This document shows positions 105-63,683 of a stretch of 64,000 nucleotides of DNA, one piece after another (position 1 is the stretch's first letter; the number at the start of each line of letters is the position of its first letter). The notes under the pieces were generated by a model, which saw nothing but the letters and a program-made list of their open reading frames with translations, made no database searches and had not been told where the DNA came from. The DNA is taken from positions 78,397,004 to 78,461,003 of the forward strand of contig CM051024.1 of NCBI GenBank assembly GCA_027627225.1, read 5' to 3'. Origin of the DNA: Congeria kusceri (taxonomy: Eukaryota; Mollusca; Bivalvia; Myida; Dreissenidae). Made by a program: the position numbers and the translations under genes.

Positions 105-3100
105 TTTATGTACTATAAACTGTTGATGGTATTAAGTATGTAATCTTTATTATACTATTTACATTTTTATCATAACTTCTGATATCGCCAGATGGATTCG
201 GAAATGCAATGACGTCGAGGAAATGTGTACTGGGGGTAGGTGCTTCCCTGAAAATAACAATATATAATATATATTGTGTATTTTACAAATAATTTTGGTA
301 CCAAACAAACAATCAATGAATGCTATCAATAAATGGAACATTTAAAATATTCTATGTTATTCAGCATTTACTGGTATATACATGGCACTTTGGATCAAAT
401 AATGTTTTATAAGTAGATTATAAATGTTACTATGAATTTGTATGCATGTTTGTTTGTTGTTGTTTTTTTTGTTGTAATATCATTAAAGTACACACTCAGA
501 TAAAAGTGTTGAGAACACAGTAAGGTACTGATCTCTAGTCTTGCCCACATTTCTTTTTCGTGCGGTTGGTAATTCCTGTCATAAGATTTTTAAAAATGTA
601 TTAATCCTTCATATAAGTACATATTGCCTAACATGCATTGCCTTTGTATGTTCAAATAAATTAGTACTTAGTAAATAATCTTTTGTTTATTATGATAATG
701 TTAGACCCTAAACACTTACAAATTGCTGAATTCATTTTAGCTTCGCTGAAAATATGTTGTTTGTAATAGTTATACACTCAATTTGAAATATTCAATGGAA
801 AAAAACATGACTTGCCCTCTCGGACACTCAAACTTTGACTTGGCTGAAAGTATTTGACTTGGCTGAACTATTTTTAAGTGCCGGGCTTTGTAAAAGTGGG
901 ATATTTGTGATACAAAGGTGTTATTATCATTTATAAATATTAATATTGTCTTATTGTCATTTTAAATTAAATATTTATTGTGAATCACCCATCTAAATTT
1001 CAAAACAATAGAGTGAACCCGGATCACAGGGATAAATAAATTTGTGTATTAAATATTAATTTTATTTAACTGTAAATACTGTTTATAACTAGATCCAACT
1101 TTTCTTTAAAACTTGAGATATTTTTTATAATTTTATCACAATTAACATGTAAACATAACTTACAAATGACAAAATGATTATCTGTTTATTTAGCCGAGCC
1201 ATCTATAAAGTCAACTTTCTAATAACATCAAATGGGCGGATGTGCTTTATGTAAAATGCCAAAAACAAAAAATGGTACATGTAAAATTAATAGACTAATT
1301 TTGTATTACCTTCAGTGAACCGGTGTCTCATAAGATCATGGTTGGTCAAATCATCAACCACACCACATGCATAGACCCATTAAATCAGCCAAGGTAAGGT
1401 TTTCTTCCAAGGAAAATTTTCTTTCCCTCTCCTTTTGTCTTAGACGGCGATGCCATGTTATTGTATTGACTTGTCCGTTGTCGTCTGCATACATGTCATG
1501 TACAATATCTAATTTTAGCAGCGGGGATTTCCGATCGCGACAAAGGTGAATGATTACAAAATGACATAGTTATGAAATAAATGCAATTAAATTCATTATT
1601 CCATAAATATCACTATGCAACCATTCATTTTCTTTCCATTTCGATGCAAATATACTGATGTTTATCGGAAAAAGGGATCAATACATGTTCCTACATTCGG
1701 AATTTCCTTACCTTAGCCAGGCAGAAAAATATCACATTTAAATAGTATGCACATTTCCAATAAACGTTTATATTGCGAAACACAAAGTGCACTGTGTAAT
1801 GTACAACATTAACAATGTGTTTCTGACACATTAAATCCACAATACTCTCGCATATCGATACGAAACACGATCGCACATAATTATGGTAGCCATTTTGGTT
1901 TTTGGTAATTGTTATATGCGCATAGGGGGAACTATACAGTTTATCGGGCTTCGGACTCGGCCTGGTGTGGTCTGGGTTCGAGCCGTCTTGCACACACTGA
2001 TAATGTCAACACCTGAAAACAAACCAAACATCATTTAAATATTGTTGTGGCTGTGGCTTCACAAAAATGTAGGGAAAAGAATTATGCACACAGTTCCACT
2101 ATAATTTTAACATGCATGATCAGCCAATATTGGGGTTCAAATGTCACCAGTTTTCGCGACCATTTCGGTGATTTTCAACATCAATTTGCAACTTTCCTGC
2201 GAATGCGAGCACCTCAAACACTGCATGCCTGTCTGCGTAACTTACCAGGTACTTGATTGCAACTGAGCAAACTGGGGGTCAACCATTCAGCTTTTCCAAT
2301 AAATTCCAATGTATGTACGCCCTTTCAAATATCCTGCCAAAGTGGCGTTCAGAGCTAGGAATCCTCATTTACGAATTTTATGTGCAAGGTGGCTCAACAC
2401 ATACACTGGCTTTACATAGGTCATATTTTAGAATTCACTAAGCATGCAATTAAAAACTCCAACCCTTAAATCTGATACTTACAACTTCTAAAACACTCAA
2501 AATGCTGCTCAGTTCACTGTATCCCTATTTATTAGAATGTTCTCCCCTGCCAATTCGAAGTTTTGGCTGAAACTGTATAGTGCCGCCATAGCCAAAAACT
2601 CAGTCGATTTCATCAAGAATAGAAATTGTTCATGAACGAAAATCGTTTTATTTTCAGGTCACAATACACTAAATACATAAGTCATGTAAGGCTGTACTCT
2701 CTAAATAAATCAACAAGTTTAACTCGAAGACATGTTTTTAGGTTTAGACACTTGCTTTGATATTCCTTTTTGGAGATGTTGGTAGGGTAAGAATTGGTAT
2801 GCACAAATAAAGCACTGAGATGTTTTAAGATTGGAGACTACAGTATGACACTTGCGCTGAGGCGGGTTACATTCAACTAGAAAGTAGCCGCTAAAATGAT
2901 GGTGATAAAACAGTCAACTTTGTTTAGTGTCGAGTTCTTTCTTACATAATAAATGACATACCCTTTGTATTGCTTAAATCAATTCATCTATGCTCTTTAA
3001 GAAAAGGTATGGTTATGAGGGTTCCTATGTGCAAAATGTTGCATTTATTTTTTGTTAAAGTTATAGCTTTTACATTAAATTTGATAGGGATTGGAATTAG

Positions 3101-3270
3101 TATATTGTAACCTAAATTCAGAGAGACAGGTTTTTCGCTAAGAAAAATCTAAGAAAATTCTAAGACGAAAAACATAGAAAAATTCTATTCTAAGTGACTT
3201 TTTTTAAAGAATTAGACAATTCTATAAAAAAAATCTTAGAAATGTTCAGAATACCGCCTCAGAGACATTA
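105..3270. other. AT-rich non-coding stretch
   Basis: Only short open frames of 60-100 codons occur, with no recognisable domain and no splice-site-bounded exon that I can defend. A GGTTCGAGCC box near 1973 resembles a pol III B box, but no matching A box was seen. Confidence 0.5.
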
Positions 3271-3279
3271 TCAGGATAG

Positions 3280-3560
3280 AAGCACTTATTACCAGCCGTT
3301 AGTACTTTATTTGATACTTAATTTCAATACAAATATAAACACAGTGAAACTTCAGATGCATAATCGGGTGAGAGTTAACAGCACAAGGTCCTTTTTCAGG
3401 CGAATAACCGACAAACACACGTAACACATACAAAACATAAATATGAAAAAGAACTGGGGTTTATCGATTCGGAACGTTCAATGCAATGCATTGAGTTTAA
3501 AACCGACTTACGGGCGCCCGAACCTCACACTTGGCCAAGAATTATTCATAATGCATGAAC
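3280..3560 (+). repeat. Fragment of the TACCGTAAAA TIR family
   Basis: The stretch shares ordered similarity with 39240-39490: a block around AAATATAAACA-AGTGAAACT, then a block around GAGCGCCCGAA / GGGCGCCCGAA. It lies about 1 kb left of a complete short copy, so it is probably a separate or displaced internal piece of the same family. There is no coding content. Confidence 0.55.
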
Positions 3561-4545
3561 ATGTAAATAAAGATTAGCCTCATAACATAGCAATACAAAT
3601 TAAACAATAATAAAAGAGAATTCTTATTCAGCTTTATTAAAATTTTATTACTCTATGGTTGGATGTATACCAGGGCAGGAGAATTGCAACTTTTTGAGGC
3701 ACGACAAGCCATCGTTCCACAAATTGTAGTAGAAAAGAACGCAACGTTCCTTTAACAGTGTTTTGGTTTCATGTTCTCAAACACCAATTGATCAGAATTG
3801 ATCAAATCTGTTTCTCCGTCGTGTCACTTATTAGTTTTTATGATAACATATTAAAAGCCAGTTTATTGGAACACAATCCATGCCATGTTGTATTTTACAA
3901 AATCCAATAATTGATACTGAATAATTCATATACGACTGAAATGATTTTAACTAGGAACAAAACCAATAAAATAAAATGATATGGTAAGCGTATATAGCTC
4001 CTAGAGTGATCAATGAGGTATTTCGTGTAAAAGGATTTCCATACTAGGTATTTGTTAGCAAGAGAATTCATTTTGTCATTTTGATATATTTTTTGCAGTA
4101 CAACTTAAAAATCCACAATTTGAGAGCCGATGGTAATAAGCTACTCGAATTATGGTGTTGTTTTGAATATCCTGTAGGTGGAGCTTAGCTTTAAAAAATA
4201 AAATAAAAATGTTTTTGAATGTCTTACCCCCCAAATCTGTTTTTCATAATATAGAAACACTGCATACACAGTTTGAGCAATACATTCTTATATTTAGGGG
4301 TACCTGGAAGATTATCAAAGTTTTAAAAATGCAACAAATTACACGACTTTTACAAGTCTCGAAACTTATTTTAAACAATACAGTTTTTATTTTGAACACA
4401 TTAATAGTGAATTCTTGTTCAGTTTCTGAAAACTACTAGAAATAATTAAATAAGAATGCGGTCTATTTGTTGCGATACTTTATTGTCATCTACCAACAAT
4501 GAACAAGATCTGAAAAGATACAAGACACATATGGAACTAAAGTAT

Positions 4546-5306
4546 TAAAGTAAAATATCTATATTTTTGGACACTTAAAAATCATTAAAAATGTTCTTGT
4601 CCGATAATTTGGATACACAAAAATATTCCCAAATTACAGGTGTCGGAAATTTTTTAGACACTACGACAATATTGCAATTACGTTCGGAAATGTCAGGTGT
4701 ATAACGTTTTCTGCCGAATAAACACGGATAGTATCGATTAATGATTTCGCGTGCTTGTTTAATACCACGCCGTATAGTATTATTTATTTTTAGCAATGTT
4801 TGCAATAAATTTTAAATCGTTTCATATGTATGATTTTGTTTTACAAAAAAAATGCGACAAGACTGCATTTTGTCGACCGAGTTCAAATATGATTAAATTA
4901 AGCAGAATTTATTGGTAAATAATTAAGACTGGTTTAGACTGGTTCCTTAATAGGATAATTTGAACAGCATATTTAATATACGATATTAATACCGGTATAA
5001 ACAATCGGGTAAACCCATTATTTATGGCACATGGCTCTTAACCCGATAACGCTAATGTAACGGTCCACCTCCACTCATTCATCTGCCAGGTATAATGACC
5101 TTCATCCAGTTGTAAAAACACACGTGCGATGTGTCATCGGATTAACGCAAACAGGTTAGAATTCTGCTAAAATACCACTGTCATCAAATGTCCGAAATTA
5201 AGATTCATGAATAATGGTTTAAATCAGGATGTCCAAAAATATATAGCGACAAAAAAGAGGGTGTCCGAAAATTTACAGTGTCTAAAAATATATATATTTT
5301 ACGGTA
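4546..5306 (+). mobile_element. Short non-autonomous TIR element (761 bp)
   Basis: The left end (TAAAGTAAAATATCTAT, then TTTTGGACAC) and the right end (GTGTCTAAAAATATAT, then ATTTTACGGTA) are inverted repeats of each other. The left half matches the inverted sequence at 53270-53508 and the right half matches inverted 46671-46985. The two halves join near 4960-4990, where the large copy at 46671-53508 holds its CCCATATGGG arrays. This is therefore an internal-deletion derivative of that element. It carries no gene. A flanking TA may be the target duplication or part of the TIR. Confidence 0.75.
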
Positions 5307-5528: not shown

Positions 5529-5753
5529 TTGCTCAATAAAATGAAGATCTGTGGTTCTGACAAATGTATTTTCTGTAAGACAGAAACGGAAACACATGTT
5601 CTCTTAATGTGGAGTTGCAATATTACACGAATGTTGTTGAATGACATCACATCTGTTGTCAAATACATTGAAATTGATTTAGTTTTTGATTGTAAAACCA
5701 TTTTATTGAGATCAAGCAGTAAATTGTCTACAAAATATATTTGTTTGCATTGA
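5529..5753 (+). pseudogene. LINE pol C-terminal zinc-finger fragment
   Basis: A 74-codon frame contains C-x2-C, then E-T-E-T-H-V-L-L, then a Cys (KCIFCKTETETHVLLMWSC). This is the pattern of the zinc-binding tail that ends many non-LTR retrotransposon polyproteins. No reverse transcriptase precedes it, so it is a 5'-truncated LINE remnant. The ATG is chance; the fragment begins wherever truncation left it. The exact LINE clade is not determinable from this piece. Confidence 0.65.
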
Positions 5754-6454
5754 AATAAAGCGATTTATTAACCTCTGTAAACGTAAATGGTAAATCCAAC
5801 AATTCACGACCTTAAAAATAGTTGCAAAATAGCCTTTGCAATTATTTAACACACACAACTACCAGATAAATATAATAGTATAGCAATATTCAAGTGAAAA
5901 TCAGTGAAATGGAACATTCAGTAAATCTCAAGTTACATACATTAGCATTTGATGTAGAGTACGTATTTCTTAATAGGACTGAAATGTATTCTTCGTTTGA
6001 AACCGCCAGATTTTTTGCTAAAAAGCATGTAAATTACATATGAAACTATTACTAAGTGCTAATTACAATTTATATGATGATATGTTATGTATGTTGTCGT
6101 TCTAGTGGCATTATTTTATGTGTTTTTCATACGTACATTTCCATTTGATGAGGTATACGCATATAAAAGCGGAGACTTAAAAGCAATGAAATGTATTCAT
6201 CGTTTGAAACTACTAAGTGCTAATAACCATTAATCTGATGAAAATTGTATGTACGTTGTCGTTCCAGATGCATTATTTTATTTTTTTTTCATTCGGGTGT
6301 ACATTCAATTTTGCCTTAGATACACCCTTCAAAATAATATTAATATTTAGATCGACTCTTAAAATTTAAGTCAGGTAATTTTAGTAATTTTACTCTACTG
6401 CTTACAGACATATATCATTATTAATATATGGATATTGACATTGAAATTGTAATT

Positions 6455-7510
6455 GAACAATTCCCCAGCAAGAAAGCCCATATGGGCCCAAAATAGGATA
6501 TACCTGGGGAAATATATCGTATGGGCCCCATATGGGTCCCATATAATATTTTTCAGCCCATATCGGGCCAATATTGGACCAAGCAACAAGCCCACATGCA
6601 TTCCCAGCAGGTATGCCCATATGGGTCCTAGTAAGTCATCGCATTTGGGCCGGAAAAGGGCTTTATTTCTGTCTAATGTACCACATGGGCCGCATGTGAG
6701 ACTTATTTTTGTGGTCTTTGTGGTCTTGCCCATATCAGAACTAGTTGGGTCCTAGGCAAGCAAGCCCATGTGGGTCCCAGTGAGAAAGCCCAAACTGGGC
6801 GTACAACAAGAAGGCCCATATGGGTCCTAGCAAGAAAGCCCATATAGGTCCACAGGCAAGCAAGCACATATGGGTCCAAGCAAGAAAGCCTATATGGGTC
6901 CCGAACATTAAGGTTCATATGAATCAACAACAGAAAGCCCAAATGGGTGCAAGCAAAAGAGCCCTCATGGAGTTCCAAAGAATCCAGCCCATATGGTCCC
7001 CAGCAAGAAGGCTCATATGGGTCCCCAACAAAACAAGCCTATATGGGTCACACAGAGCAACCCCACATGGGTCCCCAGCAATCAAACCCGTATGGATCCC
7101 ATTCAAGCAACCCTATATGGGTCCCATCAAAAAAGCCCATTTGGGTCCCCAGCAATTAAGCACATATAGGTCACGGCACGCCAGCCCATGTGGGCCCGAT
7201 ATGGGATATGCCTGGGCTTATTAACTACATTGGCCCCATGTAGGTCCCACATACATGTCATGCCCGTATTAGTCTCAGATGGGTCCCAGGCCAACAAGCT
7301 CAAATGTTTCCCAGCAAGAAAGCCCACATGGGGTCACACAAGCAAACCCATACGAGTGCCATTTCGGTTCCCCAAAAGCAAGCCATATGGGTCTCGACAA
7401 GAACAAGCAGGTCTAGATGGGTCACCAATAGCAAGCCCATATGGGTCTCATCAAGATATACCATATGGGTTTCTAACTAGCAAGACCATATGGGCCCCGT
7501 ATCGGTCTGT
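6455..7510 (+). repeat. CCCATATGGG tandem array A
   Basis: The palindrome CCCATATGGG and close variants recur roughly every 20-45 bases, separated by spacers such as TCCCAGCAAGAAAG or TCCCAACAAGCAAG. Open frames here (Pro/Gly/Lys/Ser-rich peptides in several frames on both strands) come from the periodic sequence and are not genes. The array matches 50695-52095 in inverted orientation. Confidence 0.85.
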
Positions 7511-15176: not shown

Positions 15177-15539
15177 ATGCCTATTTGCGATGGTGTCGTT
15201 GGTGAACAGAAAGTAACCGTCTTGCGGGATACTGGATGCAGTAGCGTCGTAGTTAAAGCCAAGTATGTTCAACCACAGGATTATACTGGAGCAAAGAAGG
15301 GATGTGTCTTGATCGATGGAACAGTGCGACTTTTCCCAGTGGCAGTCATCCAGATTAGAATGCCATATTATTCAGGGACAGTCGAAGCATTGGTAATGGA
15401 GAATCCAGTGTACGATCTGATATTGGGGAATATCGAAGGAATAAGAGAGAACAAAGAGCCGCTGGCATGGCAAAAGAGACTGTTAAAGTCCATGGAGATC
15501 CTACCTTCACTAAATATGACAAGAATGCTGAATTACTAG
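15177..15539 (+). pseudogene. Retroelement aspartic protease
   Basis: The 120-codon frame contains VTVLRDTGCSSVVV, the DTG active-site loop of a retropepsin, and near its middle YDLILGN, corresponding to the conserved ILG strand before the end of the domain. The protease would act as a homodimer and cut Gag-Pol. It lies directly after Gag and before the integrase. The N terminus here is simply an ATG in an open frame; in the intact element it would be part of a polyprotein. The frame runs out at 15539 and the linker to integrase continues in another frame (15467-15832). Confidence 0.85.
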
Positions 15540-15765
15540 AGGAGAGAAATCAAATAGAAGAGGCAAACGCGGTTCAGACAAGAGCACAGAAAAAGGCAGA
15601 ACGACAAAAGACAAAACCATTGAAGGTACCGTCCAGTATGCTTAATATCAACAGGGAACAGATTGAAGAAGAATTGCAAAAGGATGAAACTTTAGAAAAG
15701 GTGCGATGTGAGGTGGACAGTGGCGCAGGAGAAGAGGCTATCGTAATGGACGTGAGGCATGGTTC

Positions 15766-17009
15766 ATGGCGGAGAAGAAGCTCATCTATCGCATATACAA
15801 GAAGGAGGACGACAGTACAATACAGCATCTAGTAGTACCAAAGCTGTATCGGAATCACGTTTTGCAGGTGGGTCACGATAACCTAATGGCTGGACATTTG
15901 GGAACTAAAAAGGCAACGGACAGAATTCTGGCAGAATTTTACTGGCCTGGAATATGCTGAGACATCAAGCGATACTGTCAGTCGTGTAGTGTATGTCAAC
16001 GAACATTTCCAAAAGGGAAAGTCGTACAACTACCAGTGGGGGACATACCACTTATTGACACACCGTTTTCTCGGGTGGCAATCGATTTGGAAGGACCGTT
16101 ACATCCACCGAGCGAGAGAGGTCATTGTTTTATACTTACTGTGGTGGATTACGCATCTAGGTATCCCGAAGCACTGCCTCTGAAAAAGATAGACACAGAA
16201 ACTGTCGCAGAGGCCTTGTTAGAGATTTTCAGTAGGGTTGGACTACCGAAGGAAATACTCACTGACCAGGGAAGCCAATTCACTTCAAATCTCATGAATG
16301 AGATACGCAGACTACTGTCAATTAGAAATTGACAACAACACCATACCATCCCCAGTGCAACGGATTGGTCGAGAGATTCAATGGGAAACTGACGACTATG
16401 TTGCGAAAGATGACGAAAGAAGAACCAAGGCAGTGGGACAGGTTTATCCCAGCACTCCTTTTTGCATATAGAGACACAGAGCAAGAGAGCCTCGGATTTT
16501 CACCGGTTGAACTAATCTATGGACGTTCTGTTCGGGGTCCACTGACAGTTCTAAAGGAAATATGGACTGACGAAGAATCAGGGTCGAATACCAAGACTAC
16601 ATTCGAATATGTGTTGGAGCAGAAAGAACGATTGGAAAAGACTATGAAGGTGGCGCAAGAGAATTTGACCAAGGCAAGCAAACGGTACAGACTGTATGAC
16701 AATAGAGGAAAGAAGATGCGAACATTTGACGTTGGAGACTTAGCATTGGTTTTATTACCGACAGACAGCAACAAACTACTAATGCAGTGGAAAGGGCCAT
16801 ACAGAGTAGAAGAAAAATCCAATGAGAGAGACTATGTGATCAATGTTGATGGCAATAAGAAAAAGTTCCATGCAAACATGCTAAAGAAGTATACAGAACG
16901 GCAAGATGAAGGAACTATAGAGAAAGTGGTGTCTGAAAAGGCATGTTTGTCCATTGCTGAAGATGACCAGGAAGAGACGTTTGTTGGTGGCAGGGTCTAT
17001 GAATGTTGA
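15766..17009 (+). pseudogene. Integrase with HHCC, DDE and GPY/F modules
   Basis: An HHCC zinc domain is visible: GHDNLMAGHLGTKKAT, FYWPG, then CQSCSVCQ after an in-frame stop at 15958. The core follows with all three acidic residues: AIDLEGP (first Asp), LTDQGSQFTS (second Asp) and, after a frame change near 16325, NGLVERFNGKL (Glu). The C-terminal part (16329-17009) has WKGPYRVEEK, the GPY/F module of many Ty3/gypsy integrases; no chromodomain was recognised. The whole integrase lies upstream of the reverse transcriptase, unlike most Ty3/gypsy elements. The stop and the frameshift make it inactive as a single protein. Confidence 0.9.
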
Positions 17010-17800
17010 GTTACCAAGACTGACCAGTTCGGAAACAATAGAAGATGTTGACATAAACCCAGACCTAACTGAAGACCAAAAAGGGAAATTAAGGTCATTG
17101 ATCAAAGGGTGTGGTGATGTCATAACTGATATCCCAGGAAAGACAGATGCTGGAACACATAAAATCAAACTGACAACTGATGTGCCGATCAGATCGAAAG
17201 CATATCCAGTGCCGCAAGCAGTTAAGACGGAGATAAAGAAAGAAATAGGCAAAATGCTGGCAGCAGACATCATTACACCGTCTGATTCAGCCTACGCATC
17301 TGGAGTAGTGATGGTGAAAAAGCCTGATGGGAGCAACAGATTTTGTTGTGACTATCGGAAGATTAATAAAATCACTGTATGTGATGCAGAACCGATTGGA
17401 AATCAGGATGAAATTTTCAATAAGCTAGGAAAAGTAAAGTACTTCACGAAAATGGATCTAGCTAAAGGGTATTGGCAAATGGAAATGGATGAACAATCTT
17501 GAAAGTATACCGCATTTACAACAGACTTTGGATTGTTCGAATTTCGCCGGATGCCATTTGGTTTGGTTAACTCAGGGGCATCGTTTACTAGGATGATGAG
17601 AAAAGTGTTACAAGACCTTGATGCAGTGGAAGCTCTGTTGAAGATATCATTGAGTACACAGAAGACTTTGAAACACATTTGATACAGCTGAAGGAACTGC
17701 TAGAACGTTTGAGAAAGGCCAAGTTGACAGTGAAACCCTCAAAGTGTAAGCTTGGCTACTCGACAATTGACTTCTTAGGACAACAGTAGGCGACGGAAAA
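16954..17800 (+). pseudogene. Reverse transcriptase (broken)
   Basis: This frame overlaps the end of the integrase frame. It shows the RT approach region (IKLTTDVPIRSKAYPVP, VKKPDGSNRFCCDYRKIN), then FTKMDLAKGYWQM with the first catalytic Asp. A TGA follows at about 17500, after which RRMPFGLVNSGASF continues the domain. The YxDD box expected near 17634 reads SVED instead, with a probable frame slip just before it, so the catalytic pair is damaged. Downstream, EDFETHLIQLKELLERL and KPSKCKLGYSTIDFLG close the domain. RT would copy element RNA to DNA in the particle. This copy cannot do so. Confidence 0.9.
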
Positions 17801-17833
17801 CTCGAGCCCGACAGAGGTAAGCTTAAAACCATC

Positions 17834-18445
17834 ATGCAGTGTGCTAGACCGGCAACAAATAAACAGGTAAGATCATTCTTAGGTTTAGTTGGGTATTACC
17901 GGAAATTCATTCCAAACTTCAGTGTCGTGGCAGCCCCATTGACTGATGCCACGAGACAAGTTAAGCCAAATACGATTGAATGGAGTGCAGCTTTGGAAAA
18001 TTCGTACAAAAGTCTTGCAAAAGCGTTGTCGAAGTCACCGATATTGCGTTTACCAGATCCAGACCAGGAGTACATACTGAGGACAGACGCATCAGATGTA
18101 GGAGTAGGAGCGGTTCTCATGCAAGTGCATGACGATGACACATTCCCGGTCATGTATGCTAGCAGGAAGCTCAAGCCCAATGAGGTAAACTATTCCACGA
18201 TAGAAAAGGAGTGTTTAGCTTTGGTGTGGTGGATCCAGAAGTTCGAGGTATACTTGTATGGTAGGGAGTTTGTACTGGAAACAGACCATCAACCATTGGC
18301 GTTCTTAAGTAAAGCACAATTGTCAAATGCACGCTTGATGCGTTGGGCATTAGCTCTACAACCATATCATTACAGGGTGAAATACATTAAGGGGTCGGAA
18401 CATGTTGGGGCAGACTTTCTCAGTCGTCACCCACCAGATAATTAG
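17834..18445 (+). pseudogene. RT connection and RNase H
   Basis: The 203-codon open frame starts with the connection segment SFLGLVGYYRKFIPNFS and continues into RNase H. Acidic positions are present in ILRTDASDVGVGAVL (Asp), STIEKECLALVW (Glu), LETDHQPL (Asp) and GADFLSRHP (Asp). The domain therefore looks intact although the upstream RT is broken. The stop at 18443 lies about 25 bases before the polypurine tract. RNase H removes the RNA strand after first-strand synthesis. The ATG is only an internal Met of what would be a Pol polyprotein. Confidence 0.9.
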
Positions 18446-33879: not shown

Positions 33880-34742
33880 ATGGAATTTATTCTACAGACA
33901 TACAATATATCCACATGTTTCAACCATCCAGATGTCATGATATCTTGTAAATGTATACTCAAAGTATTCAATCCCAAATTTATCCTTACAAATAAAACAG
34001 TATTTAATACTTTCAAATATTCCAAACTAGGGCCTAATGTGTACATGGTTACTCTATGATCTGGGTGAACTACTTTTGGTACAAATATAAACATTGCGGA
34101 AATTGTGCTTGATCCACCCAGTCTAAACGCCAACTAAATTAAAGGGGCACTGTTCTCCTATTGCACATTAGCTGTCGACCATGTTACAGTTTGAACCTCC
34201 AATGAAGCCCGTTACTCGTTTAATAAAAGTAAATTACATATTATATTATACATGTATTTATTTCAGGTTAATAAACTAAACTAATGAAGCATTTTAAAAT
34301 CGCTAACAGCATTCACACTATCGGCTGTAATGCTCGTAATATCAGTTAGCCTACACAACGACACGGTCACTTTAACTCCCTCTTCCGATAACACATCGGG
34401 TAGGCTTAATTCATATAAATCAGCTTTTTAAAAAGCTTGTCATCTGTTGCTTTTACAATAACATATGCACTCGCGAACAAAATCTGCAATATTTTATTAT
34501 AGTATTAAGATCATTGAAGTATACTAGAGTTCTTAAACTTCGAATGCTTCTACTTACCCAAGATCTAATCTTATTTCAATTGAGGTTTTAATTCTCCTTT
34601 TACATATCAAATATGATATTTCGTGTTTTTATCATCCATTTTCCGTTCTTTTTAACCCTTTTCTCATTCCACTTCGTATTGCGGGCCAGCCATACGGTAG
34701 TTTCTCCTCATCCCCTTTTCTTTTCCATCCAGGCATTACCTA
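33880..34742. other. Intergenic and LINE 5' region
   Basis: No domain-bearing frame. The last 150 bases (T/C-rich) are probably the 5' UTR of the LINE that follows. Confidence 0.4.
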
Positions 34743-35578
34743 ATGTACTCGGACATAGGTTTGTACATTATGAGAATAGGTCTGTTTTATTCTCTAACTA
34801 TGAAAACTAAAGGTCTAAAACCACTGAATATGTTTGAATTGGTATGTTGCCTGACTATTCTTCTTAGAGGAGGAGGTGTCCACAAAAATCCTGGTCCAGA
34901 TCTACATCTTCAACAACAAAATGCATTCGAAAACAATCTGGAAATTGTCCACTATAACGTCCAGGGGTTCCTCAATAAGAAAGATGTCTTATATGCTGAT
35001 CTTGATGGCTTCGATATCTTGGCTTTTACTGAAACCTGGCTCAGTACAACAGTTGATAACACGGATCTACTTTTCAAATCATATCATAAGCCGTTCAGAA
35101 GGGATAGACCAATTGATCCCCATGGGGGTAGTTTCATATATGTTAGATCTGATATATTTTGTTAGACATTCAAATTGAAGATGTCGAATGTATTTGGGTC
35201 GAACTACGTATCAAGGGTAGGCGACTTCTATTCGATTCTTTCTACAGACCACCTAACTCTACAACCTACAGTATGGAATGCAAAAGTGATTCTATTTCGC
35301 TCGTTGTCGACACTGGCATCGAAAATATTATTATCACAAGTGATTTCAACCATGACTTATATAAACCTCAGTGTTAGAGCAAACTAGATTCCCTTATGTT
35401 ACAGTTTGGCCTTTCTCAATTGATCAATGAACCTACTCATTTCACGGAAACATCTGAAACTATTCTTGACCTATTTATGGTCACATCATCTTTGACAGTG
35501 TTGAACATTGGAGTGGGAGAACCCTTTTTGAGCAACAAGTTCGCTTTCATTGTCCGGTTTATTGTGTTCTTAACTTGA
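34743..35578 (+). pseudogene. LINE N terminus and APE endonuclease
   Basis: The first frame (34743-35165) has a hydrophobic stretch (MFELVCCLTILL) followed by RGGGVHKNPGPD, with NPGP at 34887-34898. The endonuclease starts with IVHYNVQGF (conserved Asn) and FTETWLS (catalytic Glu). After a frame change, SFYRPP and IIITSDFNHDL supply the central Asp/Asn motif (35159-35377). A further frame has INEPTHFTETSETILDLF (35396-35578). The final S-D-H motif is not recognisable. The endonuclease nicks target DNA to prime reverse transcription. At least two frameshifts separate these blocks. Confidence 0.85.
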
Positions 35579-46984: not shown

Positions 46985-47830
46985 AATTTCGTACCCAGCT
47001 AGCATAAATATATGGGACCCATGTGGGTCCAATATGAGCTACCATATGGGGCCTGTATGGGCTAACCATATGGGGCCAAATGGGATTTTGCAAACTGTAT
47101 TTGTATGGGTCCCAGATGGGTTGCGATATGGGACCGACGTGGGATCCATGTGGACCCGAGATGGGTCCTATAAGGGATACCCATATAAGTCCAATAAGGG
47201 CTTCGATATGGGTCCTGTATGGGCAATCCATATGGGGCCAAATGGGATTTTGCAAACTGTATTTGTCTGGGTCCCATATGGGTTGCGATATGGGACGTAT
47301 GTGGGTTCCATGTGGACCCAAGTTGGGTCCTATATGGGGAACCCATATAGGTCCAATATGGGCTTCGATATGGGTCCTGTATGGGCAACACATATGGGGC
47401 CAAGTGGGAGTTTGCAAACTGTTTTTGTATGGGTGCCAGATGGGTTGCGATATGAGACCTATGTGGGTCCCATTTGGACCCAAGGTGGGTCCTATATAGG
47501 CTACCTATATGGGGCTAAAATTGGCTTCGATATGGGTCCTTTATAGGCAGCCCATATGGGGCCATGTCAGATTTTGCAAACTGTTTTCGCATGGGTCCCA
47601 AATGGGTTGCATTATGGGATACATGTGGGTCCTATATGGATCCAAGTTGGGCCCCATTATAGGCTACCCATATGGGACCCATGCAAAAGGTGTTTGAAAA
47701 ATCCCACTTGGCCCCATATGAGCTGCCCTATCAGGACCCATCCAGGTTTCGATATGGGTTCTCTATGAGCATCCTATATGGGACCCAGTTGGGTTTTGCT
47801 AACACTGTTTGCATGGGTCCCATGTAGGTT
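46985..47830. repeat. 162 bp higher-order CCATATGG array
   Basis: The anchor TTTTGCAAACTG recurs at 47086, 47248, 47410 and 47572, an exact 162 bp period. Each unit holds about seven GGGTCC / CCATATGGG sub-blocks. Long frames on both strands are due to 162 being a multiple of three and are not genes. Confidence 0.92.
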
Positions 47831-50694: not shown

Positions 50695-52095
50695 TGACAG
50701 ATATGGGCATGTTTGCTGGGTCCCATATGGTCTTGCTAGTTAGGAACCCATATGGTCTCTCTTGCTGGGACCTATATGGGCTTGCTATTGGTGACCCATC
50801 TAGGCCTGCTTTTTGTGGGCCCATATGGGCTTTCTTGCTGGGACCCATATGGGTTTACTTTTGGGTGACGCATATCTAGGCTTTCATGCTGGGACCCATA
50901 TTGGCTTGTGTGCGTGGGTCCTACCTGGGACTGATAAGGGCATAACAATGTATGTGGGACCCTTACGGAACCCATGTGGTTAATGAGCCCAGTTATAGCC
51001 CATATTGGGCCCACATAGGCTGGCTTGCCGGGACCCATACGAGTTTACTTGCCAGGGATCCATATGGGCTCTATTAATGGGACCCGTATTGTGTTGAATG
51101 TTGGTGTCCCATATGGGCTTGCTTGTTGGAAACCCATATGGGGATGCTCTTTGTGACCCATATGGGCTAGTTTGTTGGAGACCCATACGGGCCTTTTTGC
51201 GGGGACCTATATGGGTTTGCTTGTTTGGTACCCATATGGGCTTTCCTGCTGGGACCCATATGATATTGCTGTTGTTGACCCATATGGGCTTGCTTGTTGG
51301 GGACCCATATGGGCTTTCTTTCAGTGACCCACATGGGATAACTTGTTGGGGACCTATTTAGGCTTTTTTTGCTGGACCCATATGGGCTTTCTTGTTGTGC
51401 GCCCAATTGGACTTTCTTGCTGGGACCCATGTGGGTTGTTTTGATGGGACACATATTGGGCTGTTTTGAAGGGACCCATATGGGCTTGCCTGTTGGGAAT
51501 CCATATGGGGATGCTCTTTGTGACCCATATGGGCTGGTTTGTTGGGGACCCATACGGGCCTTCTTGCTGGGACCTATATGGGTTTGCTTGTTTGGTACCA
51601 ATATGGGCTCTCCTGCTGGGACCCATATGATATTGCTGTTGTTGACTCATATGGACTTGCTTGTTTGGGACCCATATGGGCTTTCTTGCCGGGACCCATT
51701 TGGGCTTGGTTGTTTGGGACCTATATAAGCTTTCTTGCTGGGACCAGTATGGGCTTACTAGTTGGGAACCCATATGGGATTTTTTGTTGGTACCTTTATG
51801 GGCTTGCTTGTCTGGGACCCAAGTGGGTCTAACATGGGCAAGGTGATGTATATTGGTCCCATATGGGGCCCAAGTGGAAGATCAACCGAGGTAAAGCCCT
51901 TATCAGGCCCACATGTTATGACTTACCTGGACCCATATGGGCATACTTGCAAGAAATACATGTGGGCTTGCCTGCTCGGTCCGATATGGGCCCGATATAG
52001 GCAGAAAAAATAATATATGGGTCCCACATCGTGCCCATACGTTATATTTGCCCACCTGTAGGCATATTGGGCCTATATGGGCTTGCTTGCTGGGT
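50695..52095. repeat. CCCATATGGG array with 367 bp duplication
   Basis: GGGACCCATATGGGCTTTCTTGC-type units recur about every 40 bases. The landmark ATGCTCTTTGTGACCC occurs at 51144 and 51511, showing a 367 bp higher-order duplication. The peptides predicted here are repeat artefacts. Confidence 0.9.
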
Positions 52096-57244: not shown

Positions 57245-58856
57245 CACAGAAGTTGCGAGACCAGCTGGTTAAGCGTCCAGCGTATACACCGTTTACACCG
57301 TCTGCAGTTTAAACGCCTAGGACCGATTGACTTCCATTGGCGAACGCACCGTCCGAAGTCGAATTCGGACAAGGTCGGTCCTTCCATCGACACCATGAGT
57401 AGCGCGTTGAGGGTGTCGGCATTGAGACGGTTCCGGTGCGCGGTTTAAAGTCTTTTCAATGTCGAAAAACCTCGCTCGCAATCTGCGGTTGATGCCGGGA
57501 TGAGAAGTGCAACGGTTGCAAGTCTGGTGAGGTTTGGCATCACAACTGCCAGCTTGGACACAACGTGCTCTAGCAGCTCTTGCGTGGATGTCCTATTCAT
57601 CTTCTCATCGCCGTACTCAGTTTGCTTCAATAACTGGTACTCTACCCACGTGCCGATTGTGGGTGGCAATGTAGAGGCAAATCGCTCTGCTAACATCTCC
57701 ACCTCGGCACGACCATGGTGATGTCGCAAATCGTCGTCCTCGGGCCACTACCCGCACGTGAAGAGCGCACCAAACGCCTCCAGCTCCTGAATGTAGGGTA
57801 ACCTCTTCTCCAGGTTGCTGACTACGGCGTCAAGGAACGCATCGTACACCTGGGTCTTGAAGAGGTCAACTTCGCCGGAGCTCGGCTCTATAACCTTTTC
57901 CGTCTGGCGAGAGGGCTTGAAGCCGCTCCGGATGTGCAGTGAAGTTCTCCCCTGGGTGCGTCTTCAATGCACTAACTGTAGCAATGGTCCCCTTCCAATC
58001 GCGCGTCTGACGAGTCCTGGAGAGAGCCGCAAGTAGAGGCAGGGCATCCTACATCAGATGCAGGGAGACAACTAACTTGTAGGACTGCATAAAATGGGCA
58101 AGGCCCTGCGCCTGGGCGTCACATCGCTCCATCGCCTCATACTCCAGGCTCTCAAGGAGTGCCGGAAGGCACAATCAGACCGCCCGCACAGCTCGGTCAT
58201 GCGAGAGCCACCGGACGTCTTTCGCCTCTGCCATCTTCAAGAGTGGTTCATTGAGGATGTTCTGGATCTCCCGCAATGTGGCTGTTCGCACTCCGCTGTT
58301 CGCATAGTACATGTAAAGTTGCTCAGTGATGGCCTTGAACTTCTGTAAGTATGGAATTGCCTCAGCCGCCTGTGAGCTGGCTAGTGCCAGCCTGTGAGCA
58401 ACGCAGTGGTTGCGCAACAGATGAGAAACCCGCTCTGCCAACTGTGTACTCACACAGGTCTTCCGTCCTACCATGACCTTAGCACCGTCGCTCCCGAATG
58501 CGCATAGCTTCCCCATAGGCAGCTGGTTATCGGACAAAAACGTCTCAATAGACTCACGGATGGTGTCCGCTTTGCCGTTGGGTATACTACGCAGGGCGGC
58601 GAAGAAAGTCTTCTACGACCATTGTGTATATATCGAATGTAGATGGACAACTGACAGGTGGTCGCAATGTCGGTTGTCTCGTCGACCATCAGACTGTAAT
58701 AGAGAGACGACCTGACTTCGTGGACAATATCGCTCCATATATGATCGCCGAACATCATAGTGCCCTCGTGAATATGGCGGTTAGATATGTAGTTTACGTT
58801 TCCGCCGACCTCCAGCGACCTCAAGACGTCGAGTCCAAGGTCGCGCACACATGCCA
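57245..58856 (-). pseudogene. hAT transposase (ZNF862-like), main part
   Basis: Reading leftward from 58856: MACVRDLGLDVLRSLEVGGN, then SLYYSLMVDETTDIATTCQL with the first catalytic Asp, a frameshift near 58610, FGSDGAKVMVGRK with the second Asp, NHCVAHRLALASSQA, and AKDVRWLSHDRA. A decayed stretch (57730-58170, several stops) follows. The C-terminal dimerisation domain is at 57445-57729 (VALLIPASTADCERGFSTLKRL). After one stop it continues as NRLNADTLNALLMVSMEGP and FDFGRCVRQW to about 57270. hAT enzymes cut and paste DNA using a DDE active site. Order and motifs match proteins labelled ZNF862- or KIAA1586-like. The frameshift and stops make it a pseudogene. Its 5' part is at 62623-62937 and 63684-63790. 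Confidence 0.9.
58854..58856. repeat. Left 3 bp target duplication CCA
   Basis: CCA precedes the TAGTCCAGT terminus and is repeated at 62623-62625 after the opposite end. Joining the flanks through one copy restores the hAT frame (APMM|ACVRDLG). Confidence 0.85.
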
Positions 58857-58910
58857 TAGTCCAGTCATATTAGCCTATAATTTACCCAAACCCAAAACAA
58901 ATTCCTTCAC

Positions 58911-59809
58911 GAGTTATAAATGTATTTCCAACACATATTACATCCCAACAGTACTATACTAAAAGTCCTCAAAGAAATATTTAGGGGAAATAGGAAAAAA
59001 ACGCAGTGGTTTGATAGCACTATATTTTCGATTAAAACGTTTTTATTTATACACGTATATTATTACATTATGAGAAAATCAAGTGGAATCAAGTGTTTTT
59101 AACAACATATCATCACAAAATGAGCTATATATACTAGTCAATGCATAAGGAAATTTAATAGCACATTCGATCCCAAAAATATTGAATGTATTAGTTGGTA
59201 AAATGACTTTCCCAACCCACACAGAAAGGAAATGGTTTTATTACCACATGTATATAATTGTAATGGAAAGTAGTATTTTTCATTCACATTCATTTATAAC
59301 GTACTCTCATAATAGTAACTTCAATGTATAATAAGTGCTTTACAAATTATAGTAAAATATCGTCTTACAAAGTCAAATACTAAACCGTTTACGGGTCAGA
59401 TTTACCCCACCCACTCATATCGTGTATGGGACATGCATTTTACATTATGTAACGAAACTATGTACATGCTTCTTAAAACATACACATATCCTTTCATTCT
59501 CATATAGATATTATTAAATATTAAATATGATTTCTTGAACTTCTAAAATATAATAAAGAATCTACATTCAATACAACTTACATCAAGTAAATTGATAACA
59601 AGTGTATATACATGTCAATGTATAAAATGAGTCCGGATTTCTACAAATACAACTCAAACACAGGACACAAACCATTAAATATTAAACCACTGGCAATGTG
59701 GTACCATTTCATAAAAAACCATGCTCTAAACTTTACACTTTCAATTTAATTTATTGTAATACGTAATATTCTTATGTCTATTATTTCACAGAAAAATATG
59801 ACACTACGT
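58911..59809. other. 3' non-coding part of the nuclease transposon
   Basis: AT-rich with no frame of note. A minus-strand AATAAA near 59750 lies about 55 bases after the stop and could be the polyadenylation signal. Confidence 0.5.
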
Positions 59810-60660
59810 TCACATTTCTAAATCTGCTTCTGTGACCACCACATTAACGCAATCAACACCCTTACATTCGCCACATGCAGCCGTGCAGACTAAGCCATTC
59901 TTTCGACAAGAGCAGCGTTTTATTTCGCAATTGGACTTGCAGCAACACCGTACAGTCTTCAATAGCCTTTCCGGCGCAACTGGTAGATCACATTTTGTTG
60001 GCACAAGTTGACTATCCTTACGATGCCAACCCCATTTCTCTGGGTTTAGTTTGTTTCCAATCCATGTTTGAACCTGAAGGTAAGTTCTGTAACTGTGATA
60101 TTTTGCAGCAGTTGAAGTTGGAGGCAGAGCTTGCACATTTACAAACGTATTTGTAGAGTGTACTTTCTGGAGAAACTTTTGATACCGAAGATCATCAATG
60201 GTTGTACTGGTGGCACCATTGTAGAGAGATACTAACACTGCCTCTCCATGTTTTTCCACATGCTCATGTGACGACGATTGTAAGAAAACTTCCGCATCGT
60301 TTGAATTTATTTCGTTTGAAAGTAATTTCTTCAGTGCAGCTCCCTTGCTAATACCAAACATCCTTGATGTAGTGTCACAACCGGTAATAGCATGTAGAAA
60401 AAGTAGGTGTCGAGAGCAATCGGGACCTATTATATTTTGTACATTAGTTACGTCCCAAATCTTCTTCTTCAGATCTATCTTTTTGTCAGATCTAAAATAT
60501 ATGCTGTATCTTTCTGGCTTGGAATGATAAAACAAAAGAACTAAAATGTCTGTGTCTTCACCCACAACTACAACCTTTCTGTGTAGAGACTCTTCGACGG
60601 CGGTTTGCACAATGAGAAAATCTGCATCTTCATCAGAGCGTTTAACAATGCAGCCTTTAT
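59810..60660 (-). pseudogene. XPG/FEN1-like nuclease with C-terminal CXC domain
   Basis: The open frame extends upstream of its first Met (60610) to about 60660 (IHLTNKGCIVKRSDEDADFL). It then reads VVVVGEDTDILVLLFYH, matching the XPG-I pattern of acidic residues, and LLFLHAITGCDTTSRMFGISKGAALKKL, which aligns with the helix-hairpin-helix of FEN1/XPG nucleases (G-S/C-D-Y/T ... G-I-G). The middle has LPPTSTAAKYHSYRTYLQVQ and WGW. The C terminus is RCCCKSNCEIKRCSCRKNGL then CTAACGECKGVDCVN, a tesmin/TSO1-type CXC zinc domain that binds DNA. The N-terminal nuclease half with its first catalytic Asp is missing, because the frame joins the upstream exon by an internal deletion and a +1 shift near 60670. 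It is very similar in layout to uncharacterised proteins I recall from bivalves and cnidarians. Confidence 0.82.
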
Positions 60661-60674
60661 TCGTTAAATGAATG

Positions 60675-61297
60675 TCAAGTAATGTCCATTAACATTTTCT
60701 TCATGTAGACACTGCTGTATGCTTGCTCTTCACCACATATGTCTTTCATTTTGTCTACAAGATCAGACACAGTTACTTGGATTTCACAATTATCTTCAAG
60801 GAAATGAACGATTTCATGAAAAGCAGCAGTTGCATTTTGTCTGGAAGGCCGACCTCTTTTGACTTCAACATTCAGCTCAGATGATTCAGACTGGAATTGT
60901 TTTGGAATGTTATAACCAGACCTGAAATTTGATGAACAGGTCTGATGGTACCGTGCTTCTACAGCTGGCAAATCTTGGGCATAGTTTAGTCGCCCCAGTA
61001 TCAGGCTTGCCCATTCATCTCGTCTAGTTTTACAAATGTCAGCTATGGTTTTCTGGAAATCCAGTGTGATTACTGGGTGAACATCTGGCCCGCGCTTTCC
61101 AGTGTCATATTTGGCATTCTTACCACAAAACAAACATTTGTTTTTAAAGTCAAACACTTCCTCTGTACTTTTTCTCGTCTTGGGCGATGGCGGGATGAAG
61201 GTTTGTTCAACCTGCTTGCGCTGACTGTTGGGGTGACAGAACTTCTTTCTGCACATCGAATGCACTGCCTGTCCGGGGGAGACTTCAAGGCTCTGGC
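60675..61297 (-). pseudogene. Exon 3 of the nuclease gene: Cys/His N-terminal region
   Basis: An acceptor TACATTTAAG|GC lies at 61298. The exon continues the exon 2 phase (split Gly codon) as QSLEVSPGQAMHSMCRKKFCHPN, then KCLFCGKNAKYDTGKRG, TRRDEWASLILGRLNY, LPAVEARYHQTCSSNFRSG and a linker to YSSVYMKKMLMD. The paired C-x2-C, H-x3-C and R-YH-x2-C motifs suggest zinc binding. The stop at 60675 follows the point where about the middle of the protein has been deleted; the next block resumes one base out of frame. The 61265 ATG is internal. Confidence 0.8.
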
Positions 61298-61776
61298 CTT
61301 AAATGTAAAAACACAATTTTTTTATATTAATTATTATTTTTATTATTCTTTTATTATTACTATTATTTATTATTATTATTTCAATGTGGTCTACAAGTAT
61401 TAAAAAACTCTGAAAACATGAATACATTAACATCACTTTATAAAGCGTAAAGCAGATGTTCATCCAGTCATCACACTGCATATTTATGTATTTTTATTTT
61501 AACAATATAGGAAAATATACTGTAGTCCCTGTTTTTAAAACACACATACCTAAATATGTATAATACTATTTAAAAAGAAAATACCCAATAAAACTTATTA
61601 TACTAATAAAGATCATCAAATCAACTACACATGCAATGACGTACCACTTATAGTACTGGGTAATTTAAAACTACATAATGTTAAATCAAATCATTTAAAC
61701 AATTTGAATAAAAGGCATCTGTTTCAATCAAAATAAAAGAAACATATTAAGTTTTCAGTATTCAATTGTTAACTAC

Positions 61777-61909
61777 CTCTAACTGATGCTGCTGCAATTA
61801 AGCCCGAACATCCTTTTGGTGTAAGTTTTACTGTCTCCAAATTGTTGTCCTCACCACATAGAAAACATACATGTTGAGACGTTTCCTTAGGCACTTTATC
61901 GGATTCAGC
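61777..61909 (-). CDS. Exon 2 of the nuclease gene
   Basis: The exon is bounded by an acceptor TTTTTGTTGTAG and a donor AGAG|GTAGTT. It is 133 nt, open in phase 0 at its start and leaving one base at its end, which the next exon completes as Gly. It encodes SQHVCFLCGEDNN (C-x2-C), TPKGCSGLIAAASVR. Phases agree with both neighbours, which supports a real spliced gene. The introns are about 480 and 400 bp. Confidence 0.8.
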
Positions 61910-62315
61910 CTACAACAAAAAGAGCATAAAAATATATCATTCAACAGTTTTACTTTAAAAAATCGAAATATTTAATGTATTAAGATGAAAAAGTAATATG
62001 ACATTATTAGTTGTTAAGACCCTAATGGCCTTCCGTAGTTTTAATTCCCCGCGAAATATACAGTTGTTACAGTTATTTTGCGCATGTTTTATGGCATTAT
62101 TTGGTGTAATATTGATTTAAATATTGTTTCTGTATTTCTAGTGGTGAAATATTACGTAATTTTAATCAGTAACACAAATTAAACCAGATCTTTCTATAAT
62201 TACCAAAAATCGTCTGCTTGCATCAAAACATAAATATGAGGCACTTTTCTGCGCAGTAAAATAAAATATTTCTGTAAATAACTATCTAAATACAATAAAT
62301 GAAAAGTGATCTTAC

Positions 62316-62410
62316 CATATTGCTGAGTATATCACGAGATTAACCGATAGTTCCTGTTTCTTGACACAAAAAATAATGCCATACATGTAAACATCGTGAC
62401 CGGAAATGAC
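62316..62410 (-). CDS. Exon 1 of the nuclease gene: 5' UTR and start codon
   Basis: ATG at 62318-62316 is followed immediately by a donor, GTAAGATC, so only the initiator Met is coded here and exon 2 opens in phase 0. The upstream 90 bases are taken as 5' UTR; the outer boundary is a guess. CCGGAAATGACATCA at about 62400 combines an ETS-like and a CRE-like site and could be the promoter, close to the TIR side of the transposon. Confidence 0.6.
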
Positions 62411-62622
62411 ATCATGGAGCGAAAAATATAATGTGGTGGACAGTTAATGGCAGAAAATAAAACAAAAAGTATAAAACTTTTAAAAGCTATTATTTACATT
62501 AAAACAGGAAATATTTCTGAGGACTTTTTTTTACAATATCTTTATATTATACACTACTGATAAACATCAAAATCTCTTGTGAAGGAATTTGTTTTACCTA
62601 AATATTTATATTTACTGGACTA

Positions 62623-62937
62623 CCATCATCGGCGCATACTTGGAATGGTGCGGGAGCTCCTCCTTACACAGGAAGTATAAGATGGCCATAGCGGTCTTCG
62701 TGGCCTCCTGGTTTACCTCCTTCTCCCGGTTGAGCGCGCCCTCAATACCGCCTGCAGTCTGCATGGTCGAAATCTCGAACATCTCGGCCTCACGATGCGA
62801 GTCTGAAGCCTTGTGGGCGGCGCAAGCTGTGTGACGTATAGTGTTGCAGTCAACGTCTACCCATGTTGCGCGTCCGATCGGGTCCTTTTTCGGTCTTCGC
62901 TGATGCTTAATGCACAACGTGCACAGCTTTCCGTTGC
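62623..62937 (-). pseudogene. hAT transposase exon with TTF-type zinc finger
   Basis: An acceptor TTAATATGCAG lies at 62938. The exon reads GKLCTLCIKHQRRPKKDPIG (C-x2-C) and later CNTIRHTACAAHKASDSHRE, the Cys/His pattern of the TTF/BED-like finger at the N terminus of ZNF862-type transposases. It then reads EVNQEATKTAMAILYFLCKE and ELPHHSKYAPMM, where the nuclease transposon interrupts it. The sequence continues at 58856 as ACVRDLG. The split Gly codon at its start pairs with the donor at 63683. The finger would bind transposon-end DNA. Confidence 0.85.
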
Positions 62938-63683
62938 CTGCATATTAAAAAATATTTTTTAAATGTACATGCCGGTAATATGTGTGCATAATTTACCTGG
63001 TATTGAAAGTAAAATATGATTTTGTATACTGAGAAATTTGTGAACCACTGTCATTTAGTAACAATTTTCAGTTCATTATATTAATTTATACATGTATGTA
63101 CAAGAACAGTGCTTTGTTAGCATTTCAGATGATATCATGTAGCAAAGGAAATGAAAGTCGTATGGTTTCCCGACACATTTGCGTAGATGTGGATTTTTTT
63201 TGCTTATATTCCAAACATAATTCGTAATAAAGTTTCGTTCACTTATTGAAACTTTTAACGCAAGAACGCACTCAACAGGTGCACTTTCACACATCTCGCT
63301 GTCTGTTTGAGCGTGTGTAAGTCTTCATGCTATAATAAACCTGACAGTTGCTTTAAATGGCAAGGTAAAAATATTATGCGAACTTGTTTGTTGCAAACAC
63401 ATCTGATAATGAATATGACGCACTGTGTTTCTGTATAGCTCACACACATTAACATGACACTGATATTAATGCATTAATATATTACATTCCGTACTCGACT
63501 CAATCTAAATAGATGGAAAGAGTATATCGCATAAAATACTGTTATTGTTTCATTAAACTTCTGAAACATGTAAACCCAATATAAACATAAGAAACAATTC
63601 GAGCGCGTTATTTATGCTAATGATTCATGAGTGTCTGCGTAATATTTGCTAGCTATATGATGCATTTAGTTTTATTCACATAC

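Follow-up and report, generated by a model that had tools for sequence, protein, structure and literature searches.

What has interrupted a hAT transposase gene at positions 58857..62622 of a 64,000-nt stretch of the genome of the bivalve Congeria kusceri (contig CM051024.1, 78,397,004 to 78,461,003; hereafter the window), and what kind of protein moves it? An earlier note had proposed a nuclease-bearing DNA transposon, either Academ-like or representing a separate superfamily. We read the insert, with a probability of about 0.85, as a non-autonomous copy with an internal deletion, derived from a young family of cut-and-paste DNA transposons that most likely belongs to the AcademX branch of Academ. 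The description 'nuclease-bearing' does not hold for this copy in a working sense, because a deletion common to it and 21 others removed the core of the transposon protein and the first half of its nuclease. The features of the locus, in window coordinates, are as follows.

57445..58856, minus strand: interrupted hAT transposase gene, portion downstream of the insertion, decayed, with a Dimer_Tnp_hAT match
58854..58856, no strand: target-site duplication (TSD) CCA, left copy; a single CCA in empty sites
58857..62622, no strand: Academ-like (probably AcademX-type) internal-deletion transposon copy, 3,766 bp
58857..58865, plus strand: left terminal inverted repeat (TIR), TAGTCCAGT
58894..58913, plus strand: subterminal inverted block, left arm, 20 nt, 95% complementary
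59810..60688, minus strand: C-terminal remnant of the transposon protein, comprising the latter half of the FEN1-like nuclease plus a CXC-like, Cys-rich tail
60675..61297, minus strand: probable exon 3, N-terminal Cys-rich remnant, terminating soon past the deletion junction
60681..60683, no strand: deletion junction with 2-bp microhomology, at which full-length positions 1827-4602 (about 2,776 bp) are missing
61777..61909, minus strand: probable exon 2 (AESDKVPKETSQHVCFLCGEDNN...), AG and GT at its borders
62316..62318, minus strand: probable start codon (exon 1), followed by gtaaga
62576..62595, minus strand: subterminal inverted block, right arm, pairing with the left arm
62614..62622, minus strand: right TIR, ACTGGACTA
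62623..62625, no strand: TSD CCA, right copy; a single CCA in empty sites
62623..62944, minus strand: interrupted hAT transposase gene, upstream portion, zinc-finger end (PF25431, 9.6e-4, below its cut-off)

A precise insertion with matching empty sites

The TIRs and the CCA duplication, on which the earlier note had founded its claim of a transposon within a hAT gene, are present as listed. The second inverted block reported there also exists, 37 bp in from the left end and 27 bp in from the right, although its length is 20 nt and not 17 bp. Removal of the insert together with one CCA yields an open hAT frame in which SKYAPMM is joined directly to ACVRDLG, just as had been claimed, and the C-terminal dimerization region of the hAT protein is recognizable in 57445-57747 (Pfam PF05699, Dimer_Tnp_hAT, 3.3e-6, above cut-off).

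A search with the right hAT flank against the window's own genome assembly (G000; 1.549 Gb, 1,071 contigs) recovered 25 matches, namely the window's own and 24 others; six loci were opened (the window and five more), the other 19 matches being left unopened. All five of the other opened hAT copies have an uninterrupted site with one CCA at the insertion point, at 99.84% identity over 617 bp in two of them (L050, L051) and at 96.3-96.4% in the remaining three (L053-L055). The case that the earlier note had named as fatal to its proposal, namely that other hAT copies would carry the insert as an ordinary intron, is thus excluded for these five. Among the six opened loci, the transposon is found only in the window's copy. 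Copies of the hAT flank at 97-100% identity repeat along C1:78.2-81.0 Mb, the region that holds the window (C1:78397004-78461003), and since two pairs of them lie about 64.3 kb apart, this region looks segmentally duplicated.

A young family of copies

Other copies were sought in the same assembly with the first 601 bp of the element, match counts being lower bounds. At least 41 matches were found, of which 33 rows at 99-100% identity correspond to about 32 copies including that of the window (one is split over two rows), while eight rows at 72-84% represent older relatives. The DNA of 31 copies besides the window was examined. Matching 3-bp flanks occur in 18 of the 21 copies with both ends placed (exactly 3 bp in 17 of them; L034 matches over 4 bases within a T run), against about 0.4 of 21 expected from a chance match rate of about 2% at the base composition of the window. 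Hence, the earlier expectation that further copies would have both ends and short duplications is borne out. This count takes in the split copy (L039+L040) and L030, and leaves out the older relatives and those copies with an end unplaced or unfetched (L009, L010, L012, L013, L016, L023, L029, L035, L036, L037 and L038). In two of the older relatives, L044 and L045, both ends are present, with flanks that do not match over 3 bp; L045 is a miniature relative of 531 bp (5717-6247 of G000 C10:68675000-68682000), in which both ends enclose little interior.

Over the first 1,800 bp, the mean pairwise divergence is 0.47% among 21 deletion-type copies, 0.30% in seven other copies and 0.44% between the two groups. 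Judging by these sequences, the transposon family is young. The notion that the insert is an ordinary host gene or intron, to which the filing of homologues as ordinary uncharacterized genes in molluscs, corals and others might lend some color, has a negligible probability: the insert is multi-copy, bounded by TIRs and flanked by 3-bp duplications, and its site is empty in all five opened hAT copies.

An internal deletion and the spread of the derivative

Comparison of the copies with a reference copy (C3:9291722-9298250) located one identical deletion junction, joining full-length positions 1826 and 4601, in 22 of the 32 copies, the window among them. The middle is retained in five copies (L009, L013, L015, L016 and L035), of which L009, L015 and L016 may represent one single insertion because their left flank is common. 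Of the remainder, L027 and L038 have different deletions, L023 stops at 1805, and L010 and L012 stop at 626 bp. Those deletion-type copies whose flanks were read out occupy differing flanks; therefore, the derivative itself moved repeatedly.

The two open reading frames (ORFs) of the element in the window (60675-61298 and 59810-60688, both on the minus strand) abut at the junction and are out of frame because the deletion removes about 2,776 bp. The window copy is thus an internal-deletion derivative from which the core and the first half of the nuclease are gone, and as it lacks both, it would have been moved into the hAT gene in trans by longer relatives. Might the 3.77-kb form instead be the complete element and the 6.5-kb form the same element with a later 2.8-kb insertion? 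The short form is certainly the most frequent (22/32). However, the extra segment carries on a single open frame of 1,288 amino acids, and most of the 120 homologues listed align with 94-100% of the stretch from residue 200 to 1288; the diverged relatives L041-L043 contain the segment too; and it is in the short form that the reading frame is broken. We consider this inverse history very improbable.

The P-element and Ac/Ds furnish the classic internally deleted derivatives that are mobilized in trans, and the present case resembles them in its intact ends and in one common internal deletion amplified at many sites. The KP derivative of the P-element is, moreover, of the repressor type, which raises the alternative that the window's form owes its spread to repression by its truncated N-terminal product. 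The splice signals and phase of the start codon, exon 2 and exon 3 fit, and their in-frame join, with splicing probable on these signals, would give a product of 252 residues; further, the N-terminal frame is free of internal stops and frameshifts in 18 of the 22 deletion-type copies (one of these, L018, being aligned over just 572 of 624 bases). However, in 19 aligned deletion-type copies, nucleotide diversity is similar in coding and non-coding parts (0.0039-0.0052), and the changes are near neutral in both the N-terminal frame (19 replacement against 6 silent; sites 484:128) and the C-terminal frame (32 against 8; sites 682:194), these counts leaving out one stop per frame and coming from divergence so low that the test is weak. 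As the remnant frames look neutral, a point in which they differ from the P-element and Ac/Ds derivatives, there is no sign of a selected repressor, and this role was rejected on these weak data; we regard it as improbable. A selection analysis from L041-L043, relatives at 84%, was dropped because their frames are broken.

The protein of full-length members

The reference copy on C3 spans 6,529 bp, is flanked by a TTT duplication and has on its minus strand a 1,288-aa open frame, preceded in the same frame by a 128-aa piece, with two stops between them. Full-length members (6.5 kb) would thus encode a protein of roughly 1,450 residues, with an N-terminal Cys-rich part, a putative central RNase-H-like Asp-Asp-Glu (DDE) core, a FEN1/EXO1/XPG-type nuclease and a Cys-rich CXC-like tail, in that order. 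Direct profile and database searches yielded little: the two window ORFs match no Pfam family at E<=1, the 1,288-aa frame contains no usable Pfam domain, NCBIfam returned nothing useful on four proteins, a phmmer search of the PDB with a window ORF gave no match, and neither a scan of viral contigs nor a tblastn search of phage records recovered a relative.

In the region that precedes the nuclease, all 39 sequences compared have D74, D77, D228 and E500 without change. The predicted model orders this region as strand 68-77, strand 90-99, strand 188-195, a helix, strand 224-227, helices, strand 252-255, a long helical insert and helix 495-513; transposases of the RNase H fold that contain an insertion show this succession of elements. 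This topology and the invariant residues suggest a DDE transposase. The family PF20231 (DUF6589), whose function is undescribed, has matches within this core, in 13 of the 32 homologues scanned at E<=0.05, but they are weak: among six homologues scanned singly one is above the curated cut-off (P0039), and the 1,288-aa frame itself has no match.

Downstream, the predicted model of the homologue P0020 displays a FEN/PIN-like fold with a helical helix-three-turn-helix (H3TH) region, with structural matches to the FEN1, EXO1, XPG and GEN1 nucleases at about 10-17% identity; the VIA-align run on the whole model bears on residues 698-1036 only. Six of the seven metal-binding acids are present in 39 of 39 sequences and one in 38; D727, which lies outside the EXO1 alignment, is equated with a nuclease acid by position only, following the FEN1 acid pattern. 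Unlike these nucleases, the family protein has an aspartate in place of the glutamate of EXO1's EAD, and its nuclease is flanked in the same chain by a core resembling that of a transposase and by a Cys-rich tail. The predicted fold supports an XPG/FEN1-type nuclease in the family protein. The earlier note's identification of such a nuclease survives by virtue of this predicted fold; its domain-motif basis finds no echo in Pfam for the two window ORFs, and the window retains only the second half, including DADFLIV, GEDTDILVLL and GCDTTSR, with two of the seven metal-binding acids deleted. The tesmin CXC domain, which the note had taken as established, fares less well: none of the 32 homologues matches the Pfam CXC model at E<=0.05, and though C1067, C1069, C1073, C1078 and C1080 are invariant and the domain figures in the names of some UniRef entries, the label appears to be one of motif resemblance.

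Probable affinities with Academ

The AcademX and AcademH groups were reportedly defined by Kojima in 2020.

According to PMC10045372, both belong to the same superfamily, AcademX being tied to a nuclease and 3-4 bp duplications and AcademH to a helicase and 9-10 bp duplications. By these descriptions, the present element is like AcademX in its nuclease, its duplications (here 3 bp) and the lack of any helicase family in the 1,288-aa frame at E<=10 (Pfam; the N-terminal piece was scanned only as the window ORF), and unlike AcademH, which has a helicase in place of the nuclease and longer duplications. Academ is further described, in PMC10294476, as expanded in bivalves with a mean curated length of 5,565 bp, which is close to the 6.5 kb found here. 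The element is therefore probably an AcademX family, as placed by the descriptions of nuclease and TSD.

Several observations weigh against this reading or its parts. Regarding the copies, three of the 21 with both ends placed lack a duplication (L020, L028 with 2 bases, and L030 with an altered left end), and neither of the two long copies read has an unbroken gene, that on C3 having two stops just upstream of its 1,288-aa frame and that on C8 being interrupted, with its right end not found. Regarding the core, the central domain modeled alone from seven sequences gave a poor model (predicted local distance difference test, pLDDT, 62.6), for which Foldseek found nothing at E<=0.001 and the PDB yielded matches at chance level only; hence, we claim no known fold for it. 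Regarding the nuclease, D863 and D919 fall just short of invariance in a 61-sequence alignment, being conserved in 90% or more; EXO1 is matched weakly by sequence (E 0.013, with a TetR chain, which is unrelated, coming next at 0.058); and Pfam XPG_I matches one of 32 homologues, below its cut-off. Finally, the Academ assignment was made by description, and other sources name the extra protein of Academ as a RecQ helicase, not a nuclease (PMC3627910), or describe fungal Academ with DEAD/DEAH domains (PMC6416283); both statements would fit AcademH, not the window element.

This reliance on description leaves some room for a distinct, undescribed superfamily with a FEN1-like nuclease outside Academ, as do the facts that DUF6589, of unknown function, is the sole Pfam family matched in the core and that none of the best 120 matches listed for each of two protein searches is named Academ. 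However, a nuclease with 3-bp duplications constitutes the AcademX traits according to PMC10045372, and the bivalve Academ lengths agree as noted. We therefore deem a separate superfamily unlikely: of the two options offered by the earlier note, Academ-like is the best filing and the other is not needed.

Homologues and a proposed mechanism

A protein search with the core recovered 983 proteins, and the source names among the 120 listed include sponge, sea urchin, sea spider and fishes. By their source names, the matches listed across both searches come from sponges, cnidarians, molluscs, echinoderms, arthropods and fishes, contamination being unchecked. Many of those among the 120 listed per search are unnamed, 'uncharacterized' or 'Tesmin/TSO1-like CXC domain-containing', in agreement with the earlier remark that such proteins are often left uncharacterized. 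One partial homologue, P0183, is filed under Candidatus Thiodiazotropha, a bacterial symbiont of bivalves, and is probably host DNA in a symbiont bin.

We propose that the DDE core probably cuts the TAGTCCAGT ends and joins them to the target with a 3-bp stagger, and that the nuclease probably contributes to excision or integration by trimming 5' flaps or strand ends. A stronger form of this proposal, which we advance tentatively and consider doubtful, is that the DDE transposase is fused to a catalytically live FEN1/EXO1-type nuclease, on which transposition depends for the trimming of flaps or opened ends and which also fixes the duplication at 3 bp; if true, this would be a two-nuclease transposase with relatives across many animal groups. 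The locus offers a young example of an Academ-like family of the nuclease type, for which empty sites are at hand and whose derivative seems to move in trans. Through it, hundreds of animal proteins, most of them unnamed and some labeled 'Tesmin/TSO1-like CXC', are linked to a transposon-encoded protein that has a FEN1-like nuclease; therefore, these should not be read as host repair genes unchecked.

Other features of the window

Elsewhere in the window, a frame at 34701-35165 (plus strand) resembles by eye the start of a long interspersed nuclear element (LINE) endonuclease (HYNVQGFLNKKD...FTETWL), with no Pfam match at E<=0.01. A long terminal repeat (LTR) retrotransposon remnant at 15359-18445 (plus strand) has an integrase-like stretch (16326-17009) upstream of its reverse transcriptase and RNase H (Pfam rve_3, 4.8e-5, and RVT_1, 2.6e-6, both below cut-off; RNase H, 4.3e-38). 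This placement of the integrase before the reverse transcriptase is unusual for Gypsy-like elements and is found in the Gmr1 group. Degenerate tandem arrays at 6746-7194, 47009-47673 and 51099-51821 are built of similar CCCATATGGG-like or TGGGTCCC-like units, and the latter two contain long chance open frames.
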